Part shown: one piece after another, positions 22,084-30,879 of the stretch
Layout: each line of letters begins with the position of its first letter
How positions within the stretch are numbered: position 1 is the first letter of the stretch
Origin: Leisingera sp. JC1
Lineage (GTDB): Bacteria > Pseudomonadota > Alphaproteobacteria > Rhodobacterales > Rhodobacteraceae
Assembly: GCF_001679925.1 (NCBI RefSeq)
Contig: NZ_LYUZ01000114.1
Coordinates: forward strand, 50,200-90,420
Direction of reading: 5' to 3'
DNA: 40,221 nucleotides
Notes under the pieces: model-generated
Told to the model about the DNA's origin: nothing
What the model saw: only the letters and a program-made list of their open reading frames with translations
Database searches by the model: none
Translations under genes and position numbers: made by a program

Positions 22084-23527
22084 CTACCCGTGATGCGCCG
22101 CCACGGTCTTCAGCTGCGAGAACCCATACAGTGCTTCAAAGCCTTTCTCCCGCCCGTGGCCGGATTTCCCGACCCCGCCAAACGGCAGCTCCACCCCGCC
22201 GCCGGCGCCATAGTTGTTGAGGAACACCTGGCCTGCCTTCAGCTTCTTCGCAAGCCGCATCTGCCGCGCCCCGTCGCGTGTCCAGACGCTGGCGACAAGG
22301 CCATAGTCGGTGGCATTGGCAATCCGCAGCGCGTCTTCTTCGGTCTCAAACGGGATCAGCACCTGCACCGGGCCAAAGATTTCCTCCCGCGCCAGCACAT
22401 GGTCCTCAGGCACATCCGCAAACAGGGTGGGGCGAACATAGGCGCCGCTTTCTGGCGCATTGGCAACGATTGCCCCTTGTGCTGCCACCGGCAGGTCCGC
22501 GCCCTGTTTGAGGTAGTCTTCGACAATCTGCTTCTGCCGGGCGGAGATCAGCGGCCCGACCCGCAGGTCCTCCGCCGCAGGCCCCACGGTCAGCGCGCCA
22601 TAGGCCTCTGCCATCCGCGCCTTTACCTCCTCATACACTCCGCGCTGCACCAGGATGCGCGAGGAGGCGGAGCAGGTCTGGCCCGCGTTCTGGATGCCCG
22701 CGTTCACAAGGAAGGGCAGGGCAGCGTCCAGATCAGCATCATCAAACACCAGCTGCGGAGATTTGCCGCCCAGCTCCAGCGTCACCGGCACCACATTGGC
22801 CCCCGCCGCCTGCTGCACCAGCGCGCCCGTGCGCACTGACCCGGTGAAGGAGATATGATGCACGCTGGGATGCCCGGCCAGCGCCGCGCCGGCCTCGGCC
22901 CCCAGTCCCGGCACCACGTTCAGCGCCCCCGCGGGCAATCCTGCTTCCATCGCGATATGGGCAAAGGCCAGGGCGGTCAGGCAGGCCTCCTCCGCCGGTT
23001 TCAGCACGCAGGCATTGCCCATCGCCAGTGCGGCCCCCACGGAACGGCCGATGATCTGCATCGGGTAATTCCAGGGCACGATATGCCCGGTCACCCCATG
23101 CGGCTCCCGCAGGGTATAGACGGTGTAGCCATCGAGATAGGGGATGGTTTCCCCCATCACCTTGTCTGCCGCGCCGCCGTAGAACTCGCAATACCGCGCC
23201 AGCGCCACCGCGTCTGCGCGTGCCTGGGTCAGCGGCTTGCCCACGTCCATCGCCTCAATCACCGCCAGCAACTCTACCCGCTCCAGCACGAACTGGCCGA
23301 TCCGGGTCAGGATGCGGCCCCGCTCCAGCGCGGTCATACGGCCCCAGGCGCCGTCCAGCGCCGCCTCTGCTTCCAGCACCGCGGCCTCGATATCCGCCGC
23401 GCCGCCGCGGGCGATCCGGCAGGTTTCGCTGCCGTCGGAGGGGTTCACCAGCGGCAGCGCGCCGCCGCTTGCCGCGGGCAGCCACTTGCCGCCAATGAGG
23501 CAAAGCGCGGGATTGAACCAGAGGGGA

Positions 23528-23535
<8 letters not shown>
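22084..23535 (-). CDS. Aldehyde dehydrogenase family protein
   Basis: 483 residues. The NAD(P)-dependent ALDH hallmarks are present: Asn156 in PWNYP, the TGS segment at 231-233 (FTGSVRTG), general base Glu254 in LELGGKSP and nucleophile Cys288 in GQTCSASSR. EIFGPVQVLIPF and the C-terminal ELPFGGVGKSGHGREKG are also typical. It oxidises an aldehyde to the acid; members of this group act on betaine aldehyde, aminobutyraldehyde and similar compounds, and the exact substrate is not readable. The start overlaps the end of the upstream ABC ATPase gene by eight bases, so it is co-translated with the transporter and probably acts on a breakdown product of the imported compound. Confidence 0.92.
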
Positions 23536-25131
<1,596 letters not shown>

Positions 25132-25135
<4 letters not shown>

Positions 25136-25947
25136 GCGCGGGCCACCCGCAGCTTCGGGTCCAGATGGTCGCGCAAGCCGTCGCCCAGCAGGTTCAGCCC
25201 CAGAACGGTGATGATGATGGCAAGGCCCGGCACCAGCGCCAGATGCGGGGCAAAGCTGACCATGGTCTGCGCATCGGCCAGCATCCGTCCCCAGCTGGGG
25301 GTGGGCGGCTGGGCGCCGAGGCCGACATAGCTGAGGCCGGCTTCGGCCAGGATACCGAGCGAAAACTGGATGGTGCCCTGCACGATCAAGAGGTTCATCA
25401 CGTTGGGCAGGATATGCTCGGCTGAGATCCTTGCCGCGCCCTTGCCGGCCACCCGTGCGGCCAGGATGAACTCGCGTTCCCACAGGGACAGCGCCGCGCC
25501 GCGGGTGATGCGGGCAAAGACGGGGATGTTGAAGATGCCGATGGCGATGATGGCGTTGACCGCCCCGGCGCCAAGCACGGCGGTGATCAGGATGGCGATC
25601 ACCAGCGACGGGAAGGCGAAGACCAGATCGTTGCCGCGCATGATCCCCTCATCCAGCCAGGATCCCTTGCGCGCCGCCGCCGCCAGCCCCAGCGGCACGC
25701 CGGCGCCCATGCCGATGCCGACGGCCACCAGCGCCACGGCGATGGAGGTGCGGGCGCCCACCATGATCATCGACATCAGGTCGCGCCCGAAGTGATCCGT
25801 GCCCAGCCAGTGCTGCGTATTCGGTGTCTGCAGCTTGGCCGGGATGTTCATCGCGGCGTGGTCAAACGGTGTCCACAGGAACGACACCGCCGCCGCCAGC
25901 AGCACCAGAGAGGACAGAACTCCGCCAAGGATCAGATTGCGGGTCAT
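25132..25947 (-). CDS. ABC transporter permease (DppC type)
   Basis: 271 residues with about six membrane segments, the first at residues 5-25. The N-terminal HWLGTDHFGRDLMSMIMVGARTS is the DppC-family signature, and the EAA loop reads EREFILAARVAGKGAARISAEHILPN (about 160-185). It forms the membrane channel together with the DppB-type partner. It overlaps by four bases with both neighbours, so stoichiometric synthesis is likely. Confidence 0.93.
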
Positions 25948-26891
25948 GTCCGGCTCCTGAGGCGCGGGTCGACCAGTGCATAGGCGAGGTCGACCAGGAA
26001 ATTCACCGTGATGACGGCAAAGACCAGCAGCATCACAACCGACTCAACCACGATCAGATCACGCGACGAAATCGCCTGGAACACCAGCCGCCCCAGCCCA
26101 GGCAGGTAGAACACCTGCTCGATGATGATGGCGCCCGCCAGCAGGAAGGAAAACTGCAGCCCGATGATGGTCAGCACCGGGATCAGGGCGTTCCTGACCC
26201 CGTGCCGCCACAGCGCCTGGCGGCGGCTGAGGCCCTTGGCGCGGGCGGTGCGCATGAAATCCTCGCCCAGGATGTCCAGCAGCGCTGAGCGCATCACCCG
26301 CGTCAGGATCGCCGCCTGCGGCAGCGCCAGCGCGATGGCAGGCAGGGTGAGCGCATGAAGCCCCGCCCACAGCCCTGCCTCCCCGCCCGGAAACCCGCCT
26401 GCACCGAACCAGCGCAGATTGATGGCAAACACCAGCACCAGCATCATCGCAAACCAGAAGTTCGGCACCGCAACCCCTAGCTGGGTGGCCCCCATCACCG
26501 CCATATCGCCGGGCTTGCCGCGGCGGGCGGCGGCGTAGATGCCGGCCGGAAAGGCAATGAGGGTGGAGAGCGTCAGCGCATACAGCGCCAGCGGCAGCGA
26601 CACCCACAGCCGGTCCGCGATCATTCCCGCAACCGGCGTGCGGTAGGTGTAGGAGGTGCCGAAATCACCGCTCAGCATGCCTGCCGCCCAGCTGAGGTAG
26701 CGCGCCAGCTTGCCCTGATCCAGCCCCAGTTCCGTGCGCAGCGCGGCAATTGTATCGGGCTGCGCATTGACCCCCAGCATGAAGGAGGCCGGGTCGCCCG
26801 GCGCCACCTCCACCACGAGGAAGATCACCAGCGAGGCAACGGCCAGGCTGAGGACCAGTGAAATCAGGCGTTTCAGGGCATAACGCAGCAT
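25944..26891 (-). CDS. ABC transporter permease (DppB type)
   Basis: 315 residues from the ATG at 26891 (MLRYALKRLISLVLSLAVAS); a frame extended to 26957 lacks support. It has the DppB-like N-terminal helix, the periplasmic APGDPASFMLGVNAQPDT segment, the EAA loop LGEDFMRTARAKGLSRRQALWRHGVRNALIPV and the end VVMLLVFAVITVNFLVDLAYALVDPRLR. It is the first gene of the permease-permease-ATPase-ALDH unit. No clear Shine-Dalgarno is seen before the start. The 199 bases to the divergent deacetylase gene must hold the promoters of both units. Confidence 0.92.
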   Translation of the reverse strand: MLRYALKRLISLVLSLAVASLVIFLVVEVAPGDPASFMLGVNAQPDTIAALRTELGLDQGKLARYLSWAAGMLSGDFGTSYTYRTPVAGMIADRLWVSLPLALYALTLSTLIAFPAGIYAAARRGKPGDMAVMGATQLGVAVPNFWFAMMLVLVFAINLRWFGAGGFPGGEAGLWAGLHALTLPAIALALPQAAILTRVMRSALLDILGEDFMRTARAKGLSRRQALWRHGVRNALIPVLTIIGLQFSFLLAGAIIIEQVFYLPGLGRLVFQAISSRDLIVVESVVMLLVFAVITVNFLVDLAYALVDPRLRSRT

Positions 26892-27090
26892 GGCTGCCAC
26901 GTTAGGAGGGCCGGGCGTCGCGGTCCAGAGGGGAGAGAGGGGCGGGCCGCGTTGCACGCAAATAAGCGCCCGTTCTCAGCGGGTTGAGCGCCTGGAACCG
27001 GTAAATCGTGCGGCTATCGCACGGTGTCCCGGGCCCGCGCCGGTGCGCAGGGGCTTTCGCCTCGAGCGCCGTGCAGGCTATGACTATGCC

Positions 27091-28212
27091 ATGCTGTCCC
27101 GCCCCCTGTTCATCGGATCGGAAATCTACCGCGCCTCATCTTATGGCCGCACCCATCCCTTGCGGGTGCCGCGGGTTTCGACCGTGATGGACCTGTCCCG
27201 CGCGCTGGGCTGGCTGCCGGACGCGGTCTATGTGAATTCGCCCCGCGCCAAACCGGCGGCGCTGACCATCTGGCACACGCCCGAATACGTCGCGGCGCTG
27301 CTGGCGGCGGAGGCGGCGCAGGAGGTCAGTGCAGAGGTCCGCGCCCGGCATCATCTGGGCACCATTTCCAATCCGGTTTTCCCGGAGATCTTCCGCCGTC
27401 CGGCCACCGCCGCGGGCGGTTCGATCCTGGCGGGCGAGCTGCTGGCGGATGGCGGTATCGTCTACAACCCGGCGGGCGGCACTCATCACGGGATGCCGGA
27501 CCGGGCCAACGGCTTCTGCTATCTGAACGATCCGGTGCTGGCGATGCTGTCGCTGCGCCACCACGGCGCCCGGCGCATCGCCTATGTGGACATCGACGCC
27601 CATCACGCCGACGGGGTGGAGCATGGCTTTGCCGGCGATGCGGATGTGCTGATGATCTCGGTGCATGAGGAAAACCTCTGGCCCAAGACCGGCACGCTGA
27701 CCGATGACGCGGGCGGTTCTGCGCTGAACCTTCCGGTGCCGCGCGGCTTCAATGACGATGAAATGGCGCATATCCGCGACGCGTTGATCCTGCCGGCGGT
27801 GGAGGCCTTTGGCCCGGATGCCATCGTGCTGCAATGCGGTGCGGATGCCGTCACTGAAGACCCGTTGCCGCATCTGGATCTGTCGAACAACGCCCATTGG
27901 GCGGTGGTGCGGGCGCTGATGGGGATGGCACCGCGGTATCTGGTGCTGGGCGGCGGCGGCTATAACCCTTGGTCGGTCGGGCGGCTATGGACCGGGGTGT
28001 GGGCCACGTTGAACGGGTTCGAGGTGCCGGAGAGGCTGCCAGCTGCGGGCGAAACGGTGCTGCGCGGGCTGGAATTCAACGGCAACCGGCTGGGCCGCAA
28101 CCCGCCGGAGCATTGGTTCACAACGCTGCGCGACCAGCCGCGCGGCGGGGAAGTGCGGCAGGAGATCCGAGAGCGGGTGGCGTACCTGCAGGACAGATAT
28201 TTCAAGGGTTAG
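27091..28212 (+). CDS. Histone deacetylase family protein (AcuC-like amidohydrolase)
   Basis: 373 residues from the ATG at 27091 (MLSRPLFIGSEIY), with GCAGG upstream; longer starts would overlap the permease. Class I deacetylase motifs are intact: the His132-His133 pair in GGTHHGMPDRANGFCY, zinc ligands Asp169 and His171 in YVDIDAHHADGVE, Asp257 in TEDPLPHLDLS, and the catalytic Tyr291 in LGGGGYN. This pattern is nearer to AcuC than to acetylpolyamine amidohydrolase, so it could remove acyl groups from protein lysines (for instance acetyl-CoA synthetase) or from a small imported amide. It is divergent from the permease operon and convergent with the ion channel gene. The Zn site predicts a cytoplasmic metalloenzyme. 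Confidence 0.9.
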   Translation: MLSRPLFIGSEIYRASSYGRTHPLRVPRVSTVMDLSRALGWLPDAVYVNSPRAKPAALTIWHTPEYVAALLAAEAAQEVSAEVRARHHLGTISNPVFPEIFRRPATAAGGSILAGELLADGGIVYNPAGGTHHGMPDRANGFCYLNDPVLAMLSLRHHGARRIAYVDIDAHHADGVEHGFAGDADVLMISVHEENLWPKTGTLTDDAGGSALNLPVPRGFNDDEMAHIRDALILPAVEAFGPDAIVLQCGADAVTEDPLPHLDLSNNAHWAVVRALMGMAPRYLVLGGGGYNPWSVGRLWTGVWATLNGFEVPERLPAAGETVLRGLEFNGNRLGRNPPEHWFTTLRDQPRGGEVRQEIRERVAYLQDRYFKG

Positions 28213-28251: not shown

Positions 28252-29334
28252 CTAAGATGTGACCAGAAACTTCAGCACCGCAAAGCCGACGATGGCCGCA
28301 TAGCCGATGGGGTAGATCCACTTCAGCGCGTAATTGTCGAGCTTTCGGGCCAGGGTCTCGCGCCCGGCCAGCTTAAGCCGGCGCAGCACCACGTTGAAGA
28401 CGATGATCGCACCTGTGGCAAGGAACATCCACTGCAGGATGAAATCAAGAAATGTCAGGTATCCCAGCTTGGGCAGATCCGCCGAAATCGCCCAGTTGAA
28501 TGCCACAAAGACCAGCAGGTTAGCACCCGAGATTTCGATCCGCTTGCGGTACTCGTCTAGGAAGAAGACCGACCAGCTGACGGTGATCAGCACAAACATG
28601 GGGAGGAATACCCGGATCAGGTAGTAGGTGATGTGCCTGCTGCCTTCGAACACCAGCGTGATCTGATCGCTGTCATTCCCGGAAATCCCTTCGGTATCGG
28701 TTTTGATCAGGCGTGCGTTCCCAAGAATCCACTCTTCCTCGCCCAGCATGCCGCCCAGCCCGGAGTGTTGGTTCAAGGGATAGTAGCTCACGAATTCCGC
28801 CGGCAGCACTGATGCGATTTCGAACTGGAACCGCTGGGTGTCGAACGGGTACTTGCGGAAATCAAAATACGGCGCCTGCAGCGTCAGCGAGGATTTTTCA
28901 ACATAGACCACATGGCCATCTGAGCGGACACCGGCTGCGGATTGGTGAATCCAGCGGTTGGATTGCTGGTTCTGGATCACAAAGACCGGAATGACTGCAC
29001 CCGCGGATGTGGCGTAATCCGCCAGCGCATCAGGTTGGAATATGCGGTAATTCCGCCCGAACGCGCCGGGATCGAAAGCCAGGGCCGGGTCTGTCCATTC
29101 GGCCCGGATGACCGCGACTGCGCCATAGTTTTCGGCTTTCTGGTCGACGTTGACGATCTGGTCGATCTTGATTCCGATGCCCACTTCCAGCGGAGTTTCG
29201 GGTTTTCCGGTCACCCCTTCCAGTATTCCCGACAGCTCTTGCTGCGCCCAGGCTGGCCAGGCAAGGCAGCCAAAACACACCGCAGCCAGAGCCAGAAGGC
29301 GGATGAGGGGCTGGAAGATACCGGATACGATCAT
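28252..29334 (-). CDS. Prokaryotic pentameric ligand-gated ion channel (Cys-loop receptor homologue)
   Basis: 360 residues from the ATG at 29334 (a TTG two codons earlier is possible). A signal peptide ends at AWA (residue 30). The extracellular domain has IKIDQIVNVDQKAENY, the WTDPALAF strand and a cysteine-free 'Cys-loop' ending in YPFDTQ (162-167). Four membrane helices follow: M1 about 236-258 starting ITYYLIRVFLP, M2 about 263-284, M3 about 293-317, M4 about 338-358. AFNWAISADLPKLGYLTF matches the GLIC segment AFNILVETNLPKTPYMTY, so the family is clear. It should form a pentameric channel in the inner membrane opened by a periplasmic ligand or protons. The gene lies 66 bases downstream of an ABC binding-protein gene, with a hairpin between. 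Confidence 0.93.
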   Translation of the reverse strand: MIVSGIFQPLIRLLALAAVCFGCLAWPAWAQQELSGILEGVTGKPETPLEVGIGIKIDQIVNVDQKAENYGAVAVIRAEWTDPALAFDPGAFGRNYRIFQPDALADYATSAGAVIPVFVIQNQQSNRWIHQSAAGVRSDGHVVYVEKSSLTLQAPYFDFRKYPFDTQRFQFEIASVLPAEFVSYYPLNQHSGLGGMLGEEEWILGNARLIKTDTEGISGNDSDQITLVFEGSRHITYYLIRVFLPMFVLITVSWSVFFLDEYRKRIEISGANLLVFVAFNWAISADLPKLGYLTFLDFILQWMFLATGAIIVFNVVLRRLKLAGRETLARKLDNYALKWIYPIGYAAIVGFAVLKFLVTS

Positions 29335-29361
29335 ACTCAAGCTGCCAATTCACAAGAGAAA

Positions 29362-29392
29362 CCGCGAAGCCCGGCCAGCGAGGGCTTCGCGG
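29362..29392 (-). terminator. Terminator or attenuator between binding-protein and channel genes
   Basis: An 11-bp perfect stem (CCGCGAAGCCC 29362-29372, GGGCTTCGCGG 29382-29392) with a nine-base loop. On the minus strand it is followed by TTTCTCTTGT, a broken U-run. It begins eight bases after the binding-protein stop and could allow partial read-through into the channel gene. Confidence 0.65.
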
Positions 29393-29400
29393 GAGTACTG

Positions 29401-30879
29401 TTACTCCGCCCAGCTGAGCGCGCTGAGGTCGATGGCGGCCGTGGGGGCGTTCTCCCACAGCCCCTGCAGCCCGGCCTTGGCCACCCCCAGCTTGGCCAGC
29501 TGGAACAGGTAGCCGTTCACGTAATCCTTTGCGATCATTTCCTGTGCCTCTTGCAGCAGTGCGGTGCGGAGGTCCGGGGCGGTGGTGGTGTCCAGCTTGG
29601 CCATCAGTTCCTGGAAGGATTTGCTGTCGTACTGGAAATAATACTCGGGCCGGGCATAGATGCCGATGTCCATCGGCTCAGTGTGGCTGACGATGGTCAG
29701 GCCAAAACTCTTGCCGCGGAACACGCTTTCCAGCCATTGCGCCCATTCGACGTTGATGATCTCGGCCCTGATCCCCACTTCCGCCAGCTGCGCCGCAACA
29801 ATCTCGCCGCCGCGGCGGGCGTAGGAGGGAGGCGGCAGGTGCAGCGTGGTCTCGAACCCGTCCGGGAAGCCCGCCTCCGCCAGCAGCGCCTTTGCCTGCT
29901 CCGGGTCGTAAGAGGACGCGCCGGTCAGGTCCTTGTAGGCCGGGTGGTGCGGCGCAAAATGGGTGCCGATCGGGGTGCCATAGCCGAACATGGCACCGTC
30001 GATGATCGCCTGCCGGTCGATGGCATGGGCCAGGGCTTGCCGCACCCGGATGTCATCAAACGGCGGCTGCTTGTTGTTGGTGGACAGGATCGTCTCGCCC
30101 TCGGTCGAGCCGACCAGCACCTGGAACCGCGGATCGGCGTCAAACTGCGGCAGGTTCTCCGGCGCGGGGAAGTTGTCAAAGGCGTCAATGTCTTCGGCCA
30201 TCATCGCGGCAAAGGCAGCGGTGGGGTCGGAGATGAACTTGAAGGTGGCCGAGGCCAGGGCAGGCTGGTCGCCCCAGTAGTCCGGGTTGCGCGCCAGGGT
30301 GATGCGGTCGCCCTGCACCCATTCCTGGAACGTATAGGCGCCTGTGCCGACCGGATTGGTCTTGATGTCTTCAATGCTTTCCGGTGCGACGATCACCGCG
30401 TCGCCCCAGGCCAGGTTGAACAAGAGGCTGCCGTTCGGCGCCTCCAGCGTGACCTGCACAGTCTGCGGGTCCAGTGCCTCCACCGAAACGATCCCCTCGA
30501 ACAGCGCCTTCTGCGCGTTGGTGCTGTCCTCGGCACGGGCGCGGTCGAGCGAGAATTTCACGTCTTCCGCATCCAGCGCGCTGCTGTCGTGAAAGGTCAC
30601 GCCCTCACGCAGCTTGAACGTATAGACGGTGCCGTCCCCGGAGATTTCCCAGCTTTCTGCCAGCCCCGGCACCACCGATCCATCACCCATGAAGCGCGTG
30701 AGCCCCTCGAAGATGTTGCTGTAGACCACCGAGTCGATGGCCTGAGCGGCAGCGCTGGTCGGGTCCAGATGCGGCGGCTCCAGCTGCATGGCGATGGTGA
30801 CGCTGTCCTTGGCCCAGGCGCCGCCCGCCATCAGCGCCAGCGTGGAACTGGCGGCAAGAACAAAGGATCTGAAGGCCAT
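29401..30879 (-). CDS. ABC transporter substrate-binding protein (family 5, peptide/nickel type)
   Basis: 492 residues from the ATG at 30879, with GGGAG nine bases upstream. A signal peptide (MAFRSFVLAASSTLALMAGG, cleaved after AWA at 23) gives a periplasmic protein with no lipobox. Family 5 phrases are LEPPHLDPT, VYSNIFEGLTRF, YTFKLREGVTFHDSSALDAEDVKFSLDRA, GTGAYTFQEWVQGDRITL and IRVRQALAHAIDRQAI. Such proteins deliver oligopeptides, nickel complexes, opines or other solutes to DppBCDF-type permeases. It is the only binding protein in the window and most likely serves the permeases at 25132-26891, although the channel and the deacetylase genes lie between. Confidence 0.92.
   Translation of the reverse strand: MAFRSFVLAASSTLALMAGGAWAKDSVTIAMQLEPPHLDPTSAAAQAIDSVVYSNIFEGLTRFMGDGSVVPGLAESWEISGDGTVYTFKLREGVTFHDSSALDAEDVKFSLDRARAEDSTNAQKALFEGIVSVEALDPQTVQVTLEAPNGSLLFNLAWGDAVIVAPESIEDIKTNPVGTGAYTFQEWVQGDRITLARNPDYWGDQPALASATFKFISDPTAAFAAMMAEDIDAFDNFPAPENLPQFDADPRFQVLVGSTEGETILSTNNKQPPFDDIRVRQALAHAIDRQAIIDGAMFGYGTPIGTHFAPHHPAYKDLTGASSYDPEQAKALLAEAGFPDGFETTLHLPPPSYARRGGEIVAAQLAEVGIRAEIINVEWAQWLESVFRGKSFGLTIVSHTEPMDIGIYARPEYYFQYDSKSFQELMAKLDTTTAPDLRTALLQEAQEMIAKDYVNGYLFQLAKLGVAKAGLQGLWENAPTAAIDLSALSWAE

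Follow-up and report, generated by a model that had tools for sequence, protein, structure and literature searches.

A pentameric ligand-gated ion channel gene lies within a family-5 ABC importer operon of Leisingera and related Rhodobacteraceae

A relative of the nerve-cell receptor channels is encoded inside a nutrient importer operon of the marine bacterium Leisingera sp. JC1, and dozens of related species have their channel gene at the same place. The gene lies in a stretch of 40,221 nucleotides (contig NZ_LYUZ01000114.1, positions 50,200 to 90,420 of the forward strand; hereafter the window), next to the gene for a family-5 solute-binding protein (SBP5). We consider the chances about even that its product is a cation channel serving as an accessory of the family-5 uptake system. 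To our knowledge, the natural stimuli of the bacterial relatives of these receptor channels are mostly unknown. Retention of a pentameric ligand-gated ion channel (pLGIC) in one defined importer operon makes the question of its stimulus easier to test; many of the species have been cultured, and close relatives with the same operon and no channel provide natural controls. The genes and the intergenic element of the operon in the window were as follows:

29401..30879, minus strand: family-5 ABC solute-binding protein SBP_bac_5 (SBP5), 492 aa, upstream of the channel gene (Pfam 5.6e-95)
29354..29392, minus strand: attenuator- or terminator-like hairpin between the SBP5 stop and the channel start, with an 11-bp perfect stem at 29362-29392 and a T-rich tail, TTTCTCTT, at 29354-29361
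28252..29334 (stop codon included), minus strand: pLGIC of the Pro-loop type, 360 aa (Pfam, PDB matches, AlphaFold2 model)
27091..28212, plus strand: HDAC/HDLP-like deacetylase, between the channel and PermB genes
25944..26891, minus strand: ABC permease PermB (BPD_transp_1; Pfam, scanned from the longer ORF start at 26957)
25132..25947, minus strand: ABC permease PermC (BPD_transp_1; Pfam)
23528..25135, minus strand: ABC ATPase with two ABC_tran stretches (Pfam, scanned from the longer ORF start at 25483)
22084..23535, minus strand: aldehyde dehydrogenase (ALDH), the last gene of the conserved block (Pfam 6.1e-151), syntenic in most operon-bearing relatives

The channel ORF is genuine; it is read on the minus strand, and the plus-strand reading of 28252-29334 has stops. 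Its product matched the Pfam family Neur_chan_LBD (PF02931; E 2.6e-12, 47.1 bits versus a cut-off of 26) and was the only channel match in the source genome. Two NCBIfam models scored below their curated cut-offs (LGIC_1, 106 versus 500 bits; TIGR00860, 94.7 versus 280.2 bits). An AlphaFold2 monomer model (pLDDT 77.5) placed a beta ectodomain ahead of four helices, and the predicted fold is that of the solved pLGICs, in which a beta-sandwich ectodomain leads into four transmembrane helices. The preliminary description, made from the letters of the window, had called the product a Cys-loop-type ligand-gated channel with a YPFD-bearing beta ectodomain and an M2-M3 region closely matching GLIC. 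The ectodomain was borne out by the model and by the Pro-loop YPFD at residues 162-165, of which P163, F164, and D165 were invariant across 29 rows. Membership in the pLGIC family also held (Pfam, PDB), but the Cys-loop in its literal sense did not, as the eukaryotic disulfide was not found in the channel, whose only cysteines are residues 20 and 23. Because both of these sit within the presumed signal peptide, as judged by eye at the N-terminus, we regard the channel as a Pro-loop receptor and not a literal Cys-loop receptor; bacterial family members lacking the disulfide are described in part of PMC549065. The M2-M3 motif (AFN...LPK.GY.T) was present, but GLIC proved not to be the closest kin. 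The closest PDB sequences were sTeLIC (6fl9, 2e-72) and DeCLIC (9ftg, 1.5e-67; 6v4a, 1.7e-67), and the GLIC match was far weaker (2.8e-22), so that a plain GLIC-type channel was ruled out as the nearest relative.

Comparison with the solved channels placed the following residues, by alignment and, for M2, with the AlphaFold2 model as well:

29131..29133, minus strand: codon of E68, aligned with DeCLIC calcium-site E347 and GLIC E35
28732..28740, minus strand: codons of E199-E200-E201, aligned with DeCLIC calcium-site E479-E481 on loop F
28471..28551, minus strand: M2 pore helix, residues 262-288, with acidic E267 within it and E261 just ahead of it

DeCLIC (6v4a) has an extracellular site at which E347 of one subunit and the loop-F acids E479-E481 of the adjoining subunit hold calcium between them, and it is activated by calcium depletion (PMC9897478); its authors state that their own data leave undecided whether the site is functional or mainly structural. 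The Leisingera channel, at 33-36% identity, resembles DeCLIC in these four glutamates: E68, E199, E200, and E201 were each present in 100% of the 51 in-operon rows. It differs in lacking the two extra N-terminal domains of DeCLIC (360 aa, with the alignment beginning at DeCLIC residue 330). The other close relative, sTeLIC (6fl9), is a tubeworm endosymbiont channel gated by alkaline pH (PDB entry titles; PMC7336382, in part) and potentiated by 4-bromocinnamate. Its vestibular residues W75 and L93 (named in PMC11988449) correspond to I115 and A133 in the Leisingera channel. As none of the four glutamates of the DeCLIC calcium site varies in the in-operon rows, calcium or pH would be the best-supported input of the channel, as judged by homology. 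Proton-gated GLIC shares the fold at 20-23% identity. Of the GLIC carboxylate-site residues R77, R105, and E181 (PMC7336382, in part), R77 is replaced by V119 and R105 by K147, a position that is K in 98% of the operon clade.

The acids near the pore were also retained. Among the 51 in-operon rows E261 was found in 92% and E267 in 94%; they align with D221 and D227 of sTeLIC and with acids of DeCLIC, a pattern consistent with cation selectivity. Two acidic rings are described for DeCLIC in part of PMC9897478, and in our reading of the alignment these would be the residues matching E261 and E267. Conservation of M2 (0.93) was the highest among the stretches measured, and the lowest values in the ectodomain were those of the N-terminal residues 33-50 (0.59) and of residues 91-113 (0.62). 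Loop C, which in pLGICs usually contacts the ligand, was weakly conserved (0.67) and had no conserved aromatic residue. At W281 (28492-28494, minus strand), which we take to be M2 position 16', the residue was W in all 51 in-operon channels and F in 10 of 10 outside relatives; sTeLIC likewise has F.

All the parts of a family-5 importer are present in the window, namely SBP_bac_5, two BPD_transp_1 permeases, and two ABC ATPase stretches (Pfam). The claim that the channel gene follows the binding-protein gene by 66 bases on the same strand was exact (29335-29400, both genes on the minus strand). What the preliminary description had not included was the continuation of the transporter on the channel strand, with PermB, PermC, the ATPase, and ALDH (26891..22084). 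In the window the HDAC gene, on the opposite strand and likewise absent from the preliminary description, parts the channel from PermB; identification of its product as an acetylpolyamine hydrolase was not borne out, the nearest solved relative being HDLP. The solved protein nearest to SBP5 was YliB (1uqw, 3e-50), the others being of the DppA, AgaA, heme-binding protein A, and NikA types, and all 11 NCBIfam models listed scored below their own cut-offs, so that assignment of a substrate class from homology failed. A promoter scan gave one site versus 0.9 expected and was thus uninformative. No plasmid-borne copy of the channel was found at E 1e-5 among 72,556 plasmid records, a set from which very close kin of the source genome were possibly left out.

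To place the operon in relatives, 52 named relatives and further genome stretches were searched by tblastn with the proteins of the window. The conserved order was SBP5, channel, PermB, PermC, ATPase, and usually aldehyde dehydrogenase. In 51 of the 51 contigs of relatives holding all three genes, the channel lay on the SBP5 strand between SBP5 and PermB, which rules out a chance neighbor for the in-operon clade. The gap from SBP5 to the channel was 25-112 nt with a median of 50 (51 contigs; start extrapolated from query residue 1). That from the channel to PermB was at most 71 nt in 46 of the 51 and exactly 40 nt in 32. Ruegeria sp. THAF57 (L034) has the 40-nt gap, and in R. lacuscaerulensis ITI-1157 (L074) the gap is 49 nt. 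The five wider gaps contained HDAC (L032 and L033, the two Leisingera contigs, L033 being from strain ANG-M7, and the only ones of the 51 with HDAC at this place), a 6.6-kb insertion (L051), or a cupin gene (L088), or followed a broken channel (L081). The flanking genes are syntenic as well (panB, panC, and glpK, identified by eye, and from Pfam an FAD monooxygenase, S58 peptidase, SDR, and NAPRT), and synteny by itself therefore carries little weight; in L067, L068, and L069, panBC or more was missing on that side and the SBP5-channel-permease arrangement was retained.

Frequency was determined in 394 genomes of the family. A channel match was present in 29 and SBP5 (E 1e-150 or better) in 241, and the channel adjoined SBP5 in 13 of these 241, including two with apparently broken copies (G110 and G296, contigs L081 and L096); a third apparently broken copy (L095/G007) was outside the operon. 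The stretches surrounding the remaining channel matches had no SBP5 beside the channel. In G220 the channel, 4.8 kb ahead of PermB, lay at the edge of a contig. In a sample of 398 Pseudomonadota genomes the Pfam domain was found in 7, the source genome included. The preliminary description had proposed that the channel senses the imported solute or its liganded binding protein, and had looked to a repeated link with family-5 binding proteins in relatives for support. The link in 51 of 51 contigs was stronger than had been looked for, but it comes from one clade, and 13 of the 241 SBP5-bearing family genomes have it. The sensing idea is limited further by the unrelated genes in 11 of 16 channel-less operons and by the one binding protein listed among 55 neighbors of other pLGICs, both described below. 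That interpretation is thus partly supported: the link to the operon is genuine and of long standing, and sensing of the solute or of liganded SBP5 would be a further, hypothetical step.

In Ruegeria pomeroyi, locus tag SPO0098 denotes an ATP-binding gene of the peptide/opine/nickel type (PMC4809877, in part) and SPO0102 denotes panB (PMC10041152, in part). The three tags between them leave room for two permeases and SBP5, and strain DSS-3 therefore probably lacks the channel, going by the tag numbering.

Phylogenetic analysis indicated that the in-operon channels form one clade. In a tree of 63 rows (51 in-operon, with the window included and broken copies left out; 11 outside, two of which are one gene; and sTeLIC) the clade had SH-aLRT 98, and in a careful 30-row tree its support was 99/98. 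The 51 contigs are therefore not independent, and the channel-SBP5 link goes back to one single entry. The nearest outside channels were those of L090 (next to class-I tRNA synthetase and NYN genes), L092 (next to DUF502 and response-regulator-like genes), and L075 and L093 (after bipA). Channel and SBP5 tree distances were correlated over 51 rows (Mantel r 0.79, a value reached in none of 2000 permutations). When presence of the channel was traced on a 77-row SBP5 tree in which 53 rows carry it, 11 changes were needed, at least five of them forced by well-supported branches. With row sets thinned to 30 and groups chosen for the AU tests after quick trees had been seen, the Leisingera SBP5 grouped with L089 and the channel-less L142 (100/96; grouping with Ruegeria rejected, AU p 1.7e-5), and the Leisingera channel grouped with Ruegeria (98/96; grouping with L089 rejected, AU p 1.1e-4). 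Leisingera thus departs from the correlation between the two trees. These tests on the two proteins rule out purely vertical inheritance in Leisingera. In the simplest reading, the channel apparently came later into the same Leisingera slot, separately from SBP5; such slot-to-slot transfer could occur without selection, by recombination through the conserved flanks. The median pairwise dN/dS of the channel was 0.18 (335 pairs), that of SBP5 0.105, and that of PermB 0.067; the channel is thus under purifying selection that is looser than on SBP5 or PermB. Purifying selection, the tight spacing, and the apparent separate arrival in the Leisingera operon argue against mere hitch-hiking.

The site between SBP5 and PermB was then considered in operons without the channel. 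PermB was within 2.7 kb in 16 of 20 stretches around channel-less SBP5 genes. Five of these 16 slots were empty (41-193 nt) and 11 were filled by unrelated genes: HDAC, an ECF sigma factor, and cupin (two each), and a GMC oxidoreductase, an Na/Ca exchanger, a TetR regulator, a hydrolase with LysR, and a tannase (one each). Because the slot is filled by such varied genes, it is a frequent insertion place, and this is the main argument against inferring function from position. The channel-less slots with an HDLP-like deacetylase were those of L152 and L155.

Downstream of SBP5, perfect stems of at least 7 were found in 46 of 72 3' flanks, versus 2.1 on average after shuffling that preserves single letters only; a T-rich tail was present in 15. 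Behind the other genes such stems were near background, at 1 of 52 flanks for the channel and 2 of 67 each for PermB and PermC, the PermB and PermC flanks being largely coding. Folding of the 91-nt stretch in the window was modestly better than that of shuffles (z -1.77; 10 of the 200 folded as well). The terminator scan permits loops of 3-8 and reported only part of the window hairpin, whose loop is 9. The channel thus lies beyond this attenuator-like element, together with the permeases, and its expression is therefore predicted to be lower than that of SBP5.

Neighbors of pLGIC genes elsewhere were also counted. With 25 of 79 families listed, and with L094, L095, and L101 left out beforehand and L082, L083, and L110 never included, the 55 immediate neighbors of 29 outside-operon pLGIC loci contained at least one binding protein, one TRAP permease, and two dCache_3 sensors; single-member families with weaker E-values may be hidden among those outside the list. 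With one binding protein listed among these 55 neighbors, a general link between pLGICs and binding proteins is unsupported. More distant were an SBP_bac_3 gene in L169, three genes off on the other strand, and a weak SBP5 match (27%) in L092, more than 8 kb away.

We propose that the product would be a periplasm-facing, probably cation-selective pentamer of the sTeLIC/DeCLIC branch. Its gene would have entered the SBP5-permease slot once in Rhodobacteraceae; thereafter some lineages would have retained it and others lost it, with one or more moves from slot to slot. It would be co-transcribed with the operon, in relatives from the permease side of the 3' SBP5 hairpin, and the channel would work as an importer accessory, passing cations when calcium or pH conditions allow. 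It may also be opened by binding of the imported solute, or of a metabolite related to it, to the ectodomain, and the presence of nutrient would then produce a change in membrane potential or ion flux. What the computation shows is the family and fold of the protein, where its gene lies, on which strand and at what spacing, that the in-operon channels are one clade under purifying selection, and that the calcium-site acids are conserved. Against an accessory role are the 13 of 241 genomes, the 11 changes, the broken copies, the unrelated slot genes, and evolution faster than that of PermB and SBP5, as well as the weak loop C, the HDAC separation from the permeases in the window, the selection-free recombination route, and the DeCLIC authors' reservation about the function of the calcium site.

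It is quite possible, though on balance we doubt it, that the protein is a calcium- and pH-gated cation channel like DeCLIC and sTeLIC, and that its place in the operon is a permissive slot irrelevant to sensing. Such a channel would fit the four invariant calcium-site acids, the control of its nearest solved relatives by pH or calcium, the unrelated genes in 11 of 16 channel-less slots, and the single binding protein and single TRAP permease among the 55 neighbors of outside pLGICs (25 of 79 families listed). It fits less well with co-direction in 51 of 51 contigs, the near-constant 40-nt spacer, and a channel that many lineages have retained and that Leisingera apparently gained anew in the same slot; moreover, the calcium-site function in DeCLIC is left undecided by its authors (PMC9897478, in part). 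A response to calcium and pH only would still be informative, because the four acids are invariant in the in-operon clade. The accessory role might also take the form of a closer pairing, in which the channel would have the SBP5 solute or its first metabolite as its natural agonist or potentiator and calcium would act as a veto. We think this unlikely; if true, it would be the first bacterial pLGIC with a physiological ligand given by its operon, and nutrient detection would be coupled to membrane potential.

Two further explanations give the operon a different part. Liganded SBP5 might dock on the channel ectodomain and gate it, much as some chemoreceptors are engaged by binding proteins; the genes are adjacent, both products are expected in the periplasm, and both pLGIC-PBP-I fusions and PBP-II operons are described in part of PMC549065. 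This seems very improbable, however, in view of residues 33-50 and 91-113, the least conserved ectodomain stretches measured, and of the occurrence of SBP5 without an adjoining channel in most of the 241 family genomes. The channel might instead be a bioenergetic partner that dissipates or balances the cation or proton gradients of solute uptake or catabolism without sensing the solute. The channel-less slot of L153 holds another cation-flux protein on the operon strand, the Na/Ca exchanger (L153:8292-9506, Pfam 4.6e-25), but it is a single case among many unrelated cargoes, and ABC import is ATP-driven and needs no ion coupling; we regard such a partnership as rather improbable.

Family-5 binding proteins presumably belong to the PBP-II superfamily. 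Tasneem et al. (2004) described pLGICs in predicted operons with stand-alone PBP-II genes, and with Cache neighbors, and proposed a chemoreceptor role (PMC549065, in part); the Leisingera case thus adds a variant to an idea already published. It shares with those operons a channel beside a binding-protein gene and a conserved neighborhood (51 of 51 contigs). It goes beyond them in that the importer operon is complete and that gain, loss, and transfer were followed over 51 contigs. Among the matches listed in a literature search, from which subscription journals were mostly missing, there was no paper on a pLGIC inside an importer operon.

Two outside loci had transport-related neighbors. In L172 (4505-8497) a Phosphonate-bd binding protein comes about 27 bp after a pLGIC, along with a hybrid histidine kinase, and in L103 (5335-9863) a divergent pLGIC lies beside a TAXI-type TRAP transporter, DctM, with an NMT1_3 binding protein one gene further. 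Finally, the tannase/feruloyl esterase gene in the slot of a channel-less relative (L148:8079-9503) is a possible clue to the importer substrate; together with the potentiation of sTeLIC by cinnamate (PMC7336382, in part) it may give a faint hint of aromatic acids, too weak to use.
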